Shown here piece after piece: positions 3,097-9,048 of a stretch of 37,479 bases of DNA. Source of the stretch: Acidobacteriota bacterium (GTDB taxonomy: Bacteria; Acidobacteriota; Thermoanaerobaculia; Multivoradales; J023); contig RFGL01000045.1 in the NCBI GenBank assembly GCA_003697015.1, forward strand, positions 1-37,479, read 5' to 3'. How positions within the stretch are numbered: position 1 is the first letter of the stretch; every line of letters starts with the position of its first letter. Below the pieces are notes generated by a model that searched no databases, was not told the DNA's origin, and saw only the letters and a list, made by a program, of their open reading frames with translations. The position numbers were made by a program, and so were the translations under genes.

Positions 3097-3969
3097 CTAG
3101 GGATCGGACTGCAGCCGCTCCAGGAATTCCTTGACCGGCAGGCGGGTGAGGCCCTCGTAGCCGCGATTGACCTTCAGCCATTCGTTGAGGTGTTCTTCCG
3201 ACCGGAAGAAGTTGTCCACCGTTCACCCGCCGCCGCGCTGGACGTAGGTGGTCGGCGGATCGATCCGGGTCAGACGGCCGTTCTCGACCTCGATGGTGAT
3301 CGGATCGCTGCAGTGGGCGCAGGAGTCGTCGATGCGGAGCTTCTTGCCGGCGTAGTCGTCGCTGTTGACCAACAGCAGAAAGTCGACCCCTCACCACACG
3401 TCGAAGGGGGCCTGCCCTTCGACCGTGACGGTGTGGAAGTTGTAGCGCAGGGGGCCGCCCCAGGTCTGCCAGCCGTCGGCCGGCGCGTAGGTCTCGCCCC
3501 GGCGCTCGAGCAGGCCGGCGCGGGCGAGGTAGGCGAGGCGGGCGGCGACCTCCTGCTGCGGCAGCTCGACGACGCGCGCGATCTCCGCCGCATCCGGCAG
3601 CCGCTCTTCGTCGCGGAAGGCGTTGATCAAGACTTTGGCGATGCGCTTCTCGTCATTCGACAAGAGGTAGTTGTTCGCCCCCCAATAGCGCAGGTTGCGC
3701 GACAGCTCGGGATGGGCGCGGAAGTGCTCGCCGATCGCGAGGCGCAGATCGTCGTCGGCCGCCATGCCGAGGGCGGTCATCGCCTTGTCGATGCTGGTCG
3801 AGCGGAACTGTTTCTGCCAGTCCGCGAGCAGGTAGTCGACCACCTTCCGGGCGGCCGGCGACAGCTCGCCGGAGTCGGCGTCGGGCCGGGTCTCGGCCGC
3901 CGGCTGGAGGGCCAGGGCGAGGCCCAGGAGCAACGCTGGTGCACGCACCAGCGCGGTCTTCGCAAGCAC
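3097..3969 (-). CDS. merB: Exported organomercurial lyase (MerB) family selenoprotein, two Sec
   Basis: Read with UGA as Sec this is one 290-residue protein with Sec193 and Sec249; read normally it breaks into three pieces. The GTG start (LAKTALVRAP) follows AAGGAG by 6 nt and leads into a signal peptide. Residues ~105-170 form a winged-helix-like segment, as in the MerB N-terminal region. The C-terminal ~105 residues match MerB. V-W-U193-G-V-D196 aligns with A-W-C96-A-L-D99, S-C217-A-H-C corresponds to S-H-C117, and U249-T-V-D-N-F-F aligns with C159-C-H-V-H-F-F. The later EGL is also kept. In MerB, C96, C159 and D99 cleave the C-Hg bond; here both catalytic Cys are Sec and Asp is retained. 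Each UGA is followed 12-14 nt later by a perfect hairpin with a GGUC loop. The gene starts 1 nt after the TlpA-like gene stops. The substrate could be an organomercurial or another organometal; that is inference. Confidence 0.85.
3193..3210 (-). promoter_or_regulatory. SECIS-like hairpin for Sec249 of MerB-like protein
   Basis: Twelve nt after the second in-frame UGA (3225-3223), the coding strand reads TTCTTCC-GGTC-GGAAGAA, a perfect 7-bp stem with the same GGUC tetraloop as the first element. The stem sequences differ completely, so the shared loop is unlikely to be a duplication artefact. Confidence 0.75.
3361..3376 (-). promoter_or_regulatory. SECIS-like hairpin for Sec193 of MerB-like protein
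   Basis: Fourteen nt after the first in-frame UGA (3393-3391), the coding strand reads GCTGTT-GGTC-AACAGC, a perfect 6-bp stem with a GGUC loop. Bacterial SECIS elements have an apical hairpin about 15-35 nt after the UGA with G at the start of the loop. The E. coli fdhF loop, as I recall it, also contains GGUC. Confidence 0.75.
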
Positions 3970-3970
3970 G

Positions 3971-4561
3971 TCATTCTCCTTTCGAAGTCGATTCGCGTGG
4001 AGGGTCCGCCGCCGATCCGCCGGCCGCCAGCAGGCGCGTCGCCGCGGCGACGACCCGGTCGTGGAGGTCGGCGAGCTCGCCGACGAAGCGCTCGGCGACG
4101 GTGCCGTCGGGGGCGAAGAGGACGTAGGTCGGCAAGCCGACGACGCCGAAGCGCGCCACCGTCTCGTCGCCGACCAGGACGATCGGATACGGCAGTGGAT
4201 CGCGCTCGGCGAGGAAGGAGCGCACGTCGTCGGCGGTGCCGGAGTAGGCCGCCGCCCCCAGCACGGTGAAGCCGCGCGGCGCCAGCTCGCGGTGCAGCTC
4301 GGCGAGGGTCGGGAAGGAGGCGATGCAGGGCACGCACCACACCGCCCAGAAATCGACCAGCACCACCTTGCCGGCCAGCGACCGGGGGTCGAAGGGCCGG
4401 CCGTCGAGGTCGCGGGCCACCAGGTCCGCGAGGGTGGGCTCGGGCTCGCCGGCGGCGCCCGCGGGCGCCGCCGGGCCGAGGACGAGGGCGAGGACGAGGG
4501 CGACGGCGAGCGCCGCTCCACGCCCGACGGATCGGTACGGTGACGTCGTCTTCGTCTTCAT
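3971..4561 (-). CDS. TlpA/ResA-like exported thioredoxin
   Basis: A 196-residue thioredoxin-fold protein of the TlpA/ResA/AhpC-TSA group. It has an N-terminal signal or membrane anchor (hydrophobic residues 16-37) and the redox motif F-W-A-V-W-C76-V-P-C79. A cis-Pro region follows (GLPTYVLF), with the usual GTVAERFVGEL ending. The protein should act as a thiol-disulfide reductase outside the cytoplasm. Its stop codon is separated by a single nt from the GTG of the MerB-like selenoprotein, so the two are very probably translated together; an obvious inferred role is to reduce the selenol/thiol centre of that partner. No Shine-Dalgarno is visible, but a TAGCAT hexamer lies 7 nt upstream of the ATG, fitting a leaderless start. 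Confidence 0.88.
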   Translation of the reverse strand: MKTKTTSPYRSVGRGAALAVALVLALVLGPAAPAGAAGEPEPTLADLVARDLDGRPFDPRSLAGKVVLVDFWAVWCVPCIASFPTLAELHRELAPRGFTVLGAAAYSGTADDVRSFLAERDPLPYPIVLVGDETVARFGVVGLPTYVLFAPDGTVAERFVGELADLHDRVVAAATRLLAAGGSAADPPRESTSKGE

Positions 4562-4568
4562 GGGGGCG

Positions 4569-4574
4569 ATGCTA
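4569..4574 (-). promoter_or_regulatory. Putative -10 element upstream of TlpA-like gene
   Basis: TAGCAT on the minus strand, 7 nt before the ATG at 4561. No -35 and no Shine-Dalgarno can be seen. It is one of a recurrent TANNNT set close to start codons in this window. Confidence 0.35.
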
Positions 4575-4621
4575 CCCCCCCGGCGCCGGCCGGCGCCTAT
4601 CGATTCTTGCGTTTTTGACCC

Positions 4622-5512
4622 TCAGCGCCGGTGCCGGCGGCGGTAGGCGCTCGGCGACGCCCCGGCCTGCCGGCGGAAGAGATTGGCGAAGGAGGTGGGG
4701 CTCTGGTAGCCGACCGCCAGGGCGACGTCGGCGATCGACCGATCGCTCGCCGCCAGCAGCTGCCGGGCGCGCTCCAGCCGGCGCCGGGTGAGATAGCCGT
4801 GCGGGGTGGTGCCGAAGGCGGCCTTGAACAGGCGCAGGAAGTGATGCGGCGCCAGGCAGGCCGCCGCCGCGATGCGCTCCAGGGTGAGGGGCTCGGCGTA
4901 GCAGCCGTCGATCAGGTCGCGGCCGCGGTGCAGGCGACGGTAGAGCTCCTCGCGGGTCGAGGGACGCACCGCCGGCAGGCGGGCGACCTCGCGGGCGACG
5001 TCGCGGTGGCGCTCGAGCAGGCGCTCGAGCAGACGCCGCAGCCGCTCCTCCAGCCAGCCGTCGTCGACCGGGCCGCGGCGCAGGCGCGAGCGCAGGTCGA
5101 GCAGCTCCGGCATCACCCGATCGTCGTAGGGATAGAGGCGCTCGTAGAACTCGACCGGCGCCGGCGCGGCAGGTGCGGGATCGTCGAGCAGGGCGTCCGC
5201 CGGCGTCGTCAGGCTGCGCTGGACCTCCTCCGCCAGGCCGGGACGGAAGAAGACCGAGAAGGTGTCGACCGGCCGCCGGGAGTGGATGGCGCTGGCGTAG
5301 CGCCGGCCCTGGTTGAGCAGCAGATACCGGCCCGGCTCGACGACGAAGCGCGCGTCGCCGGCGGCGTGCAGCTCGCTGCCGCGGAAGACGCACTTGATCG
5401 ACAGCGGTCCGGCGCGCTCCGGATACTCGAGCTCCGTACCGCTGGCGTCGACCACGAAGCTGGGCCAGCCGGGCACGGGGCAAGGGCGGGGGAAGTCGCG
5501 CAGGATCATCAT
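4622..5512 (-). CDS. AraC/XylS-family transcriptional regulator
   Basis: A protein of up to 296 residues with a C-terminal double helix-turn-helix of the AraC family (about 195-290). The first HTH is around TLERIAAAACLAPHHFLRLFK, and the second carries the family signature IADVALAVGYQSPTSFANLF followed by FRRQAGASPSAYRR. The N-terminal ~170 residues resemble a cupin-type sensing domain (EPGRYLLLNQGRRYAS). GGAGG lies only 1 nt before the first ATG, so the second ATG (residue 2) may be the real start. It sits between the carbamoyltransferase gene (92 nt upstream) and the TlpA-merB pair (60 nt downstream) on the same strand, so it is a candidate regulator of either. The ligand cannot be told from sequence. 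Confidence 0.9.
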   Translation of the reverse strand: MMILRDFPRPCPVPGWPSFVVDASGTELEYPERAGPLSIKCVFRGSELHAAGDARFVVEPGRYLLLNQGRRYASAIHSRRPVDTFSVFFRPGLAEEVQRSLTTPADALLDDPAPAAPAPVEFYERLYPYDDRVMPELLDLRSRLRRGPVDDGWLEERLRRLLERLLERHRDVAREVARLPAVRPSTREELYRRLHRGRDLIDGCYAEPLTLERIAAAACLAPHHFLRLFKAAFGTTPHGYLTRRRLERARQLLAASDRSIADVALAVGYQSPTSFANLFRRQAGASPSAYRRRHRR

Positions 5513-5604
5513 GCCTCCATACGCTCGCCGGCGCGCCGAGGTTCGCTCGTCGCGCCAGGCGCAGCGGCTGGCGCCGCGCAGCGGGAGGCTGGCCGCTCAC
5601 GCAT

Positions 5605-7368
5605 CTAGACGAAGGTGTAGAGGTGCTCGGCGATGGCGCTCCGGCGACGGGCGAAGACGCTGCGCGGCGCCCGCTCCCAGGCCGCGAGAAGCTGCCGCCA
5701 GCGGTCGACCTCGGGCGTGCGGTCGATGAGGAAGTCCTCCAGCGCCAGGCAGTCGAGGCCGGCATCGGCAAAGCAGAAGAGGGCGTCGACCGGCGAGCAG
5801 ACGATCGGCTCGCCGCGCACGTTGAGGGAGGTGTTGAGCAGCAGCGGGCAGCCGGTGCGCCGGTGGAAGGCGGCGAGCACGGCGGCGAAGCGCGGGCAGA
5901 CCTCGGGGTCGACGATCTGCGGCCGGGTGGAGCCGTCGGCGTGGGTGATCGCCGGCAGCTCGAAGGGGGAGCGCACGGCACAGGTCTCGACCATGAAGGG
6001 AGCGGGGCCGGCGAGATCCAGGTGCTCGGCGGCGTGGGCGGCGAGCACGCTGGGGGCGAAGGGGCGGAAATCCTCGCGGCGCTTGACCCGCTGATTGAGG
6101 CGTTGGCGCATCCCCGCCTCGAGGGGGCTGGCGAGGATCGAGCGGCCGCCGAGGGCACGCGGCCCGAGCTCCATGGCACCGTGGAAGAAGCCCACCACCT
6201 TGCCCGCTGCCAGGCGCTCGGCGATCGCCTCGGCCAGCGCCTCGTGACGCCCGCGGTAGTCCTCGCAGGCGACGCCGGTGGCGCGCAGCAGGGCGTCGAT
6301 CTCCTCCGCCGCGTAGCGCGGGCCGTAGAAGACGTGGCGCAGGGTCTCGCCCGGCCGCCGGCCGGTACGCGCGGCGTGGGCCAGGGCGGCGGCGCCGAGA
6401 GCAGCCCCGGCGTCCCCCGCCGCCGGCTGGACGAAGAGCCGCTCGAACGGTCCCTGGCGGCGGATGCGGCCGTTGGCCACCGCGTTCAAGGCGACGCCGC
6501 CGGCCATCGCCAGGGCGCCGGCGCCGGTCCGCTGGTGGAGGTAGCGCAGCTTCTCCAGCAGGGTCTCCTCCACCACCAGCTGCAGGCTTCGCGCCACGTC
6601 CTGATGAAAGCGGCCGATCGCCTCCCCCGGCCGCCGCGGCGGCGCGCCGAAGAGCTCGCACAGGGCCGGGGCGTACATGCGCTCGCCGCGCAGGAAGTCG
6701 AAGTAGCGCAGGTTGAGCCGATACTGGCCGTCGGGCCCCATGCCGATCAGCTGGCAGACCTGGTCGACGAAGCGCGGCTCGCCGTAGGCCGCCAGCCCCA
6801 TCACCCGCCCCTCCCCATCGTTGATCGGAAAGCCGAGGTAGGCGGTCACGGTGGCGTAGAGCAGGCCGAGGGAGTGGGGGAAGACGACCTGTTCGAAGAG
6901 CTCGAGCTGCCGCCCGGCGCCGCGGCCGTAGCTGGTCGTCGCCCAGGCGCCGACGCCGTCGGCGACCAGGATCGCCGCCTCGTCGAAGCCGGAGTAGAAG
7001 AAGGCGCTGGCGGCGTGGCAGAGGTGGTGGGGGAAAACGTCGATCGCCCCCTCCCAGCCGAGACCGCGGCGGATCGCCTGAAGCGGCCCCTCGGGATCGA
7101 GCCACGCCAGCTCGTCGTCCGCCGCCGGGCCGGCCCACAGCTGGCGGGCGAGCTTGCGCCGCGGCGGCTCGTAGTAGGCCACGGCGTCGACGCCGGTGAG
7201 ATCGAGCCCGCCCCGGCGCAGGCAGAAACGGAAGGCCTCCACCGGCAGCCGCGGGTCGTGCTTGGCGCGCGAGAAGCGCTCCTCCGACGCCGCCGCCACC
7301 AGGGTGCCGTCGCGCAGCAGGCAGCAGGTCGACTGGTGGTAGAAGGCGGAGATGCCGACGACGTTCAT
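5605..7368 (-). CDS. NodU/CmcH/TobZ-family O-carbamoyltransferase
   Basis: A 587-residue protein, the usual length for NodU/TobZ carbamoyltransferases. These enzymes make carbamoyl-adenylate from carbamoyl phosphate and ATP, then move the carbamoyl group to a hydroxyl of a sugar or natural product. The N-terminus has the family pattern VVGISAFYHQSTCCLLRDG followed by AAASEERFSRAKHD. The Kae1-like domain shows HHLCHAASAFFYSGFDEAAI and the metal/nucleotide segments MAGGVALNAVANG and ELGPRALGGRSILA. The C-terminal domain has NQRVKRREDFRPFAPSV and PLLLNTSLNVRGEPIVCSP. All expected blocks are present, so it looks intact. It leads the minus-strand run; a TAGACT hexamer lies 12 nt before the ATG and no Shine-Dalgarno is seen. 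The acceptor is unknown; no glycan or polyketide cluster is visible here. Confidence 0.92.
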   Translation of the reverse strand: MNVVGISAFYHQSTCCLLRDGTLVAAASEERFSRAKHDPRLPVEAFRFCLRRGGLDLTGVDAVAYYEPPRRKLARQLWAGPAADDELAWLDPEGPLQAIRRGLGWEGAIDVFPHHLCHAASAFFYSGFDEAAILVADGVGAWATTSYGRGAGRQLELFEQVVFPHSLGLLYATVTAYLGFPINDGEGRVMGLAAYGEPRFVDQVCQLIGMGPDGQYRLNLRYFDFLRGERMYAPALCELFGAPPRRPGEAIGRFHQDVARSLQLVVEETLLEKLRYLHQRTGAGALAMAGGVALNAVANGRIRRQGPFERLFVQPAAGDAGAALGAAALAHAARTGRRPGETLRHVFYGPRYAAEEIDALLRATGVACEDYRGRHEALAEAIAERLAAGKVVGFFHGAMELGPRALGGRSILASPLEAGMRQRLNQRVKRREDFRPFAPSVLAAHAAEHLDLAGPAPFMVETCAVRSPFELPAITHADGSTRPQIVDPEVCPRFAAVLAAFHRRTGCPLLLNTSLNVRGEPIVCSPVDALFCFADAGLDCLALEDFLIDRTPEVDRWRQLLAAWERAPRSVFARRRSAIAEHLYTFV

Positions 7369-7380
7369 CGTTCGCCGACT

Positions 7381-7386
7381 AGTCTA
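7381..7386 (-). promoter_or_regulatory. Putative -10 element upstream of carbamoyltransferase
   Basis: TAGACT on the minus strand, 12 nt before the ATG at 7368. No -35 is recognisable. It would give a very short or absent 5' leader. Confidence 0.35.
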
Positions 7387-7454
7387 CCCGCCCCGCGTAA
7401 GCCGGATCGAAAGGTCGATCGTCGAAGGTGCCCGGCCAGCGGGTCGGCCCCGCG

Positions 7455-7465
7455 TAGGATAGACT
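7455..7465 (+). promoter_or_regulatory. Putative -10 region of dodecin gene
   Basis: TAGGAT (7455-7460) overlaps TAGACT (7460-7465), about 37-42 nt before the dodecin ATG. Two overlapping TANNNT hexamers in otherwise GC-rich sequence suggest the -10; no clear -35 is visible. Confidence 0.35.
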
Positions 7466-7501
7466 CGCTTCCGATTTCGCCAACCGAACAGGAGAAATGC
7501 C

Positions 7502-7708
7502 ATGTCGTCCGTTGCCAAGGTCATCGAGATTTCCGCCTCCTCCCCGAAGAGCTTCGAAGACGCCATCGAAAGCGGCATCGCCAAAGCCGCGAAGACGGTC
7601 AAGAACATCACCGGCGCCTGGGTCAACGAGGAGAAGGTGCGGGTGGAGAACGGCCAGGTCGTCGAGTGGCGGGTCAACCTCAAGGTCTCCTTCGTCCTCG
7701 ACGAGTGA
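7502..7708 (+). CDS. Dodecin family flavin-binding protein
   Basis: A 68-residue protein, the normal dodecin length. Dodecins form hollow dodecamers that store or sequester flavins such as riboflavin, FMN or lumichrome in the cytoplasm. The sequence has the family order: KVIEISASSPKSFEDAIE, then a helix AIAKAAKTVKNITGAWV, then two strands (VRVENGQVVEWRVNLKVSFVL). The ATG follows AGGAG at a spacing of about 6 nt. It is 14 nt upstream of the vWA-FHA gene and may share its mRNA, although no functional link is obvious. Confidence 0.95.
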   Translation: MSSVAKVIEISASSPKSFEDAIESGIAKAAKTVKNITGAWVNEEKVRVENGQVVEWRVNLKVSFVLDE

Positions 7709-7722
7709 GGCCCGCGCAGGTC

Positions 7723-9048
7723 ATGTGGCGAGCCGCCGTCCTAGCCTGCGCCCTGCCCTTGACCTGCGCCGCCGGCGCGGCGGCGCAAGGCAGCGGCTCG
7801 GCTGCCGGCGGCGTGCCCCTGGTGGTGGCGGTCGACACCAGCCGCTCCCTCACCCCGGCGCAGCTGGCCGAGGTGGTGACGCGGCTCGAGGAGACGCTCC
7901 CCCTGTTGCCGGAGGAGACCGGCGCCGGCCTGCTGATCTTCGACGACGCGCCGCGCTGGCTGGTGCCGCTCGAGGCGTCGCCGGCGCGCCTCGCCGGCGC
8001 CCTCCCCGGACTCCGGCCGCAGGGCGAGCACACCCAGCTCAACGACGCCCTCTTCTTCGCCGTCCGCGCCCTCGAGGGAGGCGGCGTCGTGCTGCTGGTC
8101 ACCGACGGCCGCGACGAAGACTCCGCCACCACGGTCGACGACATCGCCCGCCGCTGCGAAGCCCAGGGGGTGCGGATCCTCGCCCTCGGCGCCGGCTCGC
8201 GGGTCGACCGGCGCTCCCTGCGACGCCTCGCCCTGCTCTCCGACGGCACCTATCTCGGCACCGTCGGCGAGGTCGCTGCGCCGGCGATCGCCGGCGCCGT
8301 CGCCGCCGCCCGGACGGCGGTCGGGGTCGAACGCGACCGCCTCCGGCCGCCGCCGCCGGCGTTGCCCGCGCCCCAAATCAGCACCCCGCCGCCGCCCCCG
8401 CCCGCCGTGGCGGAGAGCGACGGCGGTCGCCTCGAATCGCCGGAGCCCTCCTGGCGCCGGCCGGTGGTCGCCGGTGGCGGGATGCTGCTCGCCGCCGCCC
8501 TCGCCTTCCTGCTGTGGCGCCGCCGCCTCAAGGCCAGCCGGCACTGCCCGCGCTGCGGCAGCGAGCTCGACGCCGGCGGCGACTGCACCTACTGCGCCGC
8601 CGAAGAACGCCGCCGGCGGCTCGAGGAGGTGCCGGTGCTCGCCCCCGGCGAGCTGCAGGAGGTGAGCGACAAGACGGTGCTCGTCGATCGCCTGGCGCTC
8701 GATGAGCAGCTCGAAGAGACCCGCCTGCTCACCCAGCAGCTGCTGCTCGAGGTGCGCGAGCGCGGCGCCCCTCCCCGCCTCTACGCCCTCGACGACGAGC
8801 ACGCCGTCGCCATCGGCCGCAACGCCGAGGGCAATACCCTCTTCGTTCCCGACCCCGCTCTCTCCGCCCATCATCTGAAGATCGTGCCGCGGGGCGGGGG
8901 CCGCTACGAGCTGCTCGACCTCGGCTCGACCAACGGCACCTTCGTCAACGGCGAACGCCGCCAGCTCGCCACCCTCGTCGCCGGCGACGTGGTCACCGCC
9001 GGCCATCTCGAGCTCAAGCTCATCGCGAGCACCGACCCTCTACGGTAA
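7723..9048 (+). CDS. Membrane vWA-zinc ribbon-FHA protein
   Basis: A 441-residue multidomain envelope protein. A signal peptide (1-22) leads into a von Willebrand A domain (about 32-190) with an intact metal site: DTSRS, a Thr in the TQLND stretch, and VTDGRD. A Pro-rich linker (about 205-232) is followed by one membrane helix (248-264, GGGMLLAAALAFLLW) and a run of Arg/Lys. The cytoplasmic part has a zinc ribbon starting CPRCG (275) and closing CTYC, then an FHA domain (about 345-435) with the marks IGRN, SAHH and STNGTFVNG. FHA domains bind phosphothreonine peptides, so the protein could link an outside adhesion or metal-binding event to a Ser/Thr-kinase signal inside; that is inference. 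No kinase or phosphatase gene lies nearby. The chosen ATG is the first after the dodecin stop. Confidence 0.85.
   Translation: MWRAAVLACALPLTCAAGAAAQGSGSAAGGVPLVVAVDTSRSLTPAQLAEVVTRLEETLPLLPEETGAGLLIFDDAPRWLVPLEASPARLAGALPGLRPQGEHTQLNDALFFAVRALEGGGVVLLVTDGRDEDSATTVDDIARRCEAQGVRILALGAGSRVDRRSLRRLALLSDGTYLGTVGEVAAPAIAGAVAAARTAVGVERDRLRPPPPALPAPQISTPPPPPPAVAESDGGRLESPEPSWRRPVVAGGGMLLAAALAFLLWRRRLKASRHCPRCGSELDAGGDCTYCAAEERRRRLEEVPVLAPGELQEVSDKTVLVDRLALDEQLEETRLLTQQLLLEVRERGAPPRLYALDDEHAVAIGRNAEGNTLFVPDPALSAHHLKIVPRGGGRYELLDLGSTNGTFVNGERRQLATLVAGDVVTAGHLELKLIASTDPLR

Follow-up and report, generated by a model that had tools for sequence, protein, structure and literature searches.

A putative exported MerB-superfamily protein with selenocysteine predicted at both mercury-ligand positions in an Acidobacteriota bacterium

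The window analysed here, by which we mean the whole stretch of 37,479 nt of contig RFGL01000045.1 (assembly GCA_003697015.1) from an Acidobacteriota bacterium (Thermoanaerobaculia; Multivoradales; J023), carries a MerB-like gene preceded on the same strand by a gene for a TlpA/redoxin-like protein and one for an AraC-type regulator (Table 1). When TGA was translated as U, the 290-codon frame running from 3969 to 3097 on the minus strand contained exactly two UGA codons and no further stop until the TAG at 3099–3097, and retranslation placed both UGAs exactly where the first-pass annotation had put them (3393–3391 and 3225–3223). From its N terminus the predicted protein comprises a signal-peptide-like segment, an extra helical region in which no family scored above its cut-off, a winged-helix-like stretch and then the MerB core. 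The export proposed earlier agrees with this N terminus, which was read by eye, and with the hydrophobic N termini of the homologues.

Table 1. Positions of the features in the window and in related loci (rows that carry an L handle refer to that locus)
Feature	Location	Strand	Remarks
Double-selenocysteine MerB-family gene (predicted)	3097–3969	−	290 aa, GTG start, TAG stop
In-frame UGA1, codon 193 (Sec193)	3391–3393	−	Column of MerB Cys96; context DVW-U-GVDFLLLV
In-frame UGA2, codon 249 (Sec249)	3223–3225	−	Column of MerB Cys159; context RGGG-U-TVDNFFRSEEH
Asp196 codon	3382–3384	−	Equivalent of MerB Asp99 (proton donor)
Cys217 codon	3319–3321	−	Equivalent of MerB Cys117; invariant in seven aligned sequences
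MerB core domain, residues 179–271	3157–3435	−	Pfam match; MerB entries rank highest in the PDB fold comparison
Signal-peptide-like N terminus, about residues 1–26	3892–3969	−	End approximate; read by eye; homologues with hydrophobic N termini
Ribosome-binding-site-like AAAGGAG	3976–3982	−	Ahead of the GTG start
SECIS-like hairpin 1	3361–3376	−	6-bp stem; GGUC loop starting 20 nt past UGA1
SECIS-like hairpin 2	3193–3210	−	7-bp stem; GGUC loop starting 19 nt past UGA2
TlpA/redoxin-like gene, exported thioredoxin fold, WCVPC	3971–4561	−	Ends 1 nt before the start codon of the MerB-like gene
AraC-type regulator	4622–5512	−	Upstream of tlpA in the window; not among the conserved neighbours of relatives
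Small secreted protein, ECF sigma factor and zinc-finger anti-sigma factor	L026 3175–5409		Equivalents in L024 and L027
Cys-type MerB next to or near the double-Sec gene	L024 6865–7632	−	
Cys-type MerB next to or near the double-Sec gene	L026 6888–7559	−	
Cys-type MerB next to or near the double-Sec gene	L027 9599–10258	+	
One-Sec group members	L051–L053, L059, L062, L063, L068, L070, L076–L084, L086, L087, L089, L092		
Second double-UGA group members	L045, L064, L093–L096, L107		AAUAEDA ... YUxKSxFFWSEEH

Scored with C substituted for U, residues 179–271 matched the Pfam MerB family (PF03243) with an E-value of 4.7e-7 and 30.3 bits, above the gathering score of 27. Alignment through the family profile to the MerB structures 1s6l and 3f0o put U193 at Cys96, D196 at Asp99, C217 at Cys117 and U249 at Cys159 in the established MerB numbering. 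The same columns agreed with MerB2 (5c17) except for the Asp, which MerB2 lacks, and the equivalents of D196 and C217 were invariant in seven aligned sequences. A MerB-like frame with exact active-site spacing had been claimed for this gene, as had the retention of the third MerB Cys, and both claims hold. When the structure model of the protein (mean pLDDT 75) was compared with the PDB using Foldseek, the best 11 matches were all MerB, with E-values from 2e-6 to 2e-4 and low global TM-scores (0.2–0.36). None of the NCBIfam models scored above its cut-off for the MerB-like gene: the MerB equivalogs NF033555 and NF009710 gave 23.2 and 18.6 bits, against cut-offs of 200 and 193, and the SaoL model (NF040728), which was the best-scoring NCBIfam model for one homologue (L022), gave 22 bits against a cut-off of 140. 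Taken together, the protein very probably belongs to the MerB superfamily and, on this evidence, would be a MerB-superfamily selenoprotein that is neither SaoL nor a MerB equivalog.

A protein search of 197 genomes recovered three relatives from the same phylum, 51–52% identical to the window protein and each with two internal TGAs. An independent collection yielded six loci, from three Acidobacteriota MAGs, two Neomarinimicrobiota and one MAG labelled Bacteroidota, the three Acidobacteriota loci lying on the same contigs as the three relatives from the first search; a survey of MerB proteins added three double-UGA loci of the same group (in genomes G692, G771 and G772). UGA was present at both columns in all ten loci, that is, in the window and in nine homologous loci from three phyla, indicating that the in-frame UGAs are real and not errors, since relatives in three phyla keep both replacements. 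In a codon-by-codon alignment of seven sequences no stop was found besides the two UGAs, and the codon-position differences between the UGAs and after UGA2 were highest at third positions (0.47 and 0.53, compared with 0.16–0.27 at first and second positions), which argues for translation of, and selection on, the parts downstream of the UGAs.

Downstream of either UGA lies a hairpin that resembles bacterial SECIS elements and has a loop of the form G-G/U-U-C. All pairs (six at site 1 and seven at site 2) were formed in the seven sequences counted, and at each site two pairs had changed on both sides in a compensatory manner. A search of the 522 TGAs on both strands of the window for a hairpin with a GGTC loop and 6 bp or more, located 15–25 nt downstream, returned two, UGA1 and UGA2 only, while in randomised sequence such a hairpin occurred at a rate of 1.7e-4 per TGA. 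At site 1 about 0.1% of synonymous recodings folded equally well; at site 2 the corresponding figure was 0 of 20,000 for FSSEE variants and about 9–12% for FWSEE and FRSEE, so that in the latter the amino-acid sequence by its nature promotes hairpin formation. The SECIS-like hairpin (3193–3210 in the window and the same region in other Sec-MerB sequences) overlaps the segment encoding the conserved F-[W/R]-S-E-E, and the protein sequence may therefore have been moulded by an RNA element. Single-sequence folding energies after the two UGAs were unremarkable (z of −0.63 and 0.68), and Rfam at gathering scores gave no match in the whole window; the SECIS signal comes from this particular hairpin and the covariation of its pairs rather than from folding energy.

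The genome from which the window derives (5.34 Mb, 96% complete) contains selA, selB and selC, the last as a tRNA-Sec with a UCA anticodon (73.9 bits), and its SelD is itself a selenoprotein with an in-frame UGA (KTCG-U-AAKLSP; L032, G000:C412) at the classical Sec position. A tRNA-Sec match was obtained in all six relatives tested, over the family cut-off in five. SelA scored above its cut-off in 48 of the 53 genomes tested, among them most Sec-MerB genomes but also Cys-only ones and some that lacked any MerB match, and the contrast in SelA between Sec-MerB and Cys-MerB genomes therefore says little. Two of the genomes with a double-Sec gene, both draft assemblies (G771 and G499), gave no SelA over the cut-off, and G499 carries a tRNA-Sec match of 65.7 bits.

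Two in-frame stops in one gene could in principle reflect a pseudogene, a sequencing error or readthrough without selenocysteine. This is very improbable given that the same UGA positions recur in ten loci, that the seven sequences checked have no other stop, and that SECIS-like hairpins with compensatory changes are accompanied by a complete Sec machinery. That this genome reads UGA as a different residue, for instance Trp, a reading for which the open frame alone would speak, is less probable still and practically negligible: tRNA-Sec, SelA, SelB and SelD are all present, and the TlpA gene just upstream ends in UGA. We accordingly rejected a pseudogene, a sequencing error and a reassigned code on the conserved UGAs, the SECIS-like elements and the Sec machinery. 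The first-pass annotation had claimed Sec at both catalytic Cys positions, and this stands: close relatives showed neither random stops nor frameshifts and keep the UGAs, homologues have Cys or Sec at both columns, and selA, selB, selC and selD were all found in the genome of the window. From the sequence evidence, we consider Sec to be incorporated at both sites almost certainly.

Reading the cores of Pfam MerB matches in three phyla for Cys and UGA at these columns identified a wider set of Sec-MerB groups, which makes the finding stronger than first stated. One group of 21 sequences keeps Cys96 and has UGA at the C159 column (FTU-K/S-TMLLFRSEEH). A second double-UGA group consists of seven sequences of cytosolic type, without an evident signal peptide, carrying AAU-AEDA and YU-xxS-x-FFWSEEH. 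The second-site hairpin was present, at a constant loop distance of 19 nt from the UGA, in 38 Sec-MerB sequences from all three Sec groups. In the tree, the group of the window and the second double-Sec group each formed one clade (100/100) and were not joined; the placement of the window's group was weakly supported (80/14), and Sec at C96 may therefore have had one origin or two. The one-Sec group, whose SECIS-like hairpin lies 19 nt downstream, is common in Acidobacteriota and was also observed in two other phyla. Inside its clade, two sequences (L088 and L091) have Cys at the Asp99 column (CLWCA/CMWCA) and Cys at the Sec column, and another (L090) has Trp at the Sec column. The second double-UGA group has a first-site hairpin of its own, CCCUU-CGUGC-AAGGG, with the loop about 26 nt after the UGA. 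At one locus (L106, about 3739–8260, minus strand) a double-UGA MerB of this second kind lies beside selA and a selD-like gene, in a genome (G331) that carries a second selA elsewhere; the region is possibly a co-inherited selenium cassette.

A 2026 review of 119 prokaryotic selenoprotein families (PMC13188914) has SaoL as its sole MerB-like entry and gives it a single Sec within a CU motif; a 2022 review has the same SaoL representative sequence (PMC9312934). The 2026 review lists SaoL as a MerB-like organometallic lyase (NF040728; PMC13188914, crediting Haft and Gwadz 2023). Literature searches for MerB or alkylmercury lyase together with selenocysteine or selenoprotein gave nothing beyond SaoL, the Haft papers being represented by the reviews that cite them. 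The earlier suggestion that an exported double-Sec MerB-like protein is unusual stands in part: such a protein is absent from the 119-family catalogue, while Sec in a MerB-like protein was already known from SaoL (PMC13188914). The one-Sec and the cytosolic-type double-Sec groups are apparently uncatalogued as well, being absent from PMC13188914. As SaoL is described in these listings, the window protein resembles it in being a MerB-like selenoprotein with a presumed part in organometal chemistry; in contrast to the single Sec and CU motif listed for SaoL in PMC13188914, it has two predicted Sec residues (WUGVD and GGGUTVD), neither of them Cys-adjacent, and appears to be exported. Two Sec in a single protein and a metal-related name also characterise MbdU (NF045648, a metal-binding double selenoprotein) and further double-Sec families listed in PMC13188914. 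MbdU is a different family, and the window protein gave no match to NF045648. The likeness to MerB (PF03243; 1s6l, 3f0o and 5c17) extends over the core domain, the winged-helix-like stretch that precedes it and the C96/D99/C117/C159 columns, filled here by Sec, Asp, Cys and Sec. Unlike MerB, the window protein has Sec in place of both Hg-ligand cysteines, bears a signal-peptide-like N terminus and an extra helical N-terminal region, falls below the NCBIfam equivalog cut-offs, and is encoded with a TlpA partner, no mer operon being seen in the flanks.

The TlpA-like gene was found upstream on the same strand in all ten loci, mostly within about 125 bp, with one extra gene separating it from the MerB-like gene in G771 and G772. 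In three Acidobacteriota relatives, the tlpA-merB pair is preceded by genes for a small secreted protein, an ECF sigma factor and an anti-sigma factor of the zinc-finger type, and these neighbours could possibly place it under stress- or metal-responsive control. Two relatives have a Cys-type MerB gene as convergent downstream neighbour, at a distance of about 100 bp, and in a third such a gene lies about 3 kb away. A simple motif scan, confined to the flanks, revealed no merA-, merT-, merP- or merR-like genes in the group of the window.

Considering the full set of catalytic columns including the Asp, the upstream TlpA, the nearby Cys-type MerB and the UGA at C159 in two other MerB groups, the protein would most likely serve in the envelope as a lyase or scavenger of organometals (organomercurials), with TlpA as the partner that keeps it reduced, and we infer an Hg or organometal substrate. 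That this exported double-Sec protein acts as an organometal lyase together with TlpA in the envelope seems, on the sequence comparisons, moderately probable. In the proposed mechanism, the two selenolates would capture an organometallic cation, most likely R-Hg+, Asp196 would protonate the carbon so that R-H leaves, and the metal ion would remain bound to Se/Se, perhaps also to S, before being handed on. Keeping Sec193 and Sec249 reduced in an oxidising envelope without bulk thiols would fall to the TlpA-like partner, which may also aid metal release. With Sec, the site would bind metal more tightly and its nucleophile would not become protonated at low pH. Against the lyase, we counted the lack of mer genes in the flanks by motif scan, the distant homology to true MerB, and the structure model, whose confidence is moderate and whose global TM-scores are low; turnover could also suffer if Hg is bound very tightly by Se. 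MerB is, furthermore, normally cytosolic.

The main rival is a selenium redox enzyme built on the MerB scaffold, in which Sec193 and Sec249 would cycle between diselenide and diselenol with TlpA as electron donor and with peroxides, sulfur compounds or disulfides as substrates. The two Sec residues should be close to each other, as are the two Hg ligands in MerB, and a WCxxC-bearing TlpA-like protein encoded upstream in every locus, flanks without mer gene motifs and the view that most bacterial selenoproteins are redox enzymes (PMC13188914) would all suit this role. However, it needs no protonating Asp, whereas the equivalents of Asp99 and Cys117 are invariant in the seven aligned sequences, and two relatives have a Cys-type MerB adjoining the gene, a third one in its vicinity; we regard the redox reading as rather unlikely. 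Ranked third, and judged improbable, is a non-catalytic periplasmic protein that, as scavenger or chaperone, would use Se/Se/S to hold Hg(II), As(III), Cd or Cu and would leave carbon-metal bonds intact. The conserved Se/Se/S ligand set and the exported nature of the protein fit such a role, as do the ECF sigma factor, zinc-finger anti-sigma factor and small secreted protein, which in three relatives suggest a stress-controlled operon, but the full MerB catalytic set is kept, including an Asp that a scavenger would not need.

Returning to the organometal lyase, we tentatively propose, as a possibility we consider somewhat doubtful in its full extent, that a double-Sec MerB and a dedicated TlpA reductase constitute an undescribed extracytoplasmic organometal-cleaving system found across Acidobacteriota, Neomarinimicrobiota and a third phylum. 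As part of the wider Sec-MerB set, it would imply that selenium-based cleavage of C-Hg or C-metal bonds is widespread in environmental bacteria and has been missed by standard annotation. Gene callers that read UGA as a stop cut Sec-MerB genes, and gene surveys of mercury demethylation would therefore miss or truncate these groups. MerB is the best-studied methylmercury-cleaving enzyme, and Hg-Se chemistry has a central place in the toxicity of mercury. With a natural, extracytoplasmic relative of MerB that has Se as both ligands, one could test directly whether C-Hg cleavage is accelerated by selenolates, and also how the cell frees mercury from such a site.
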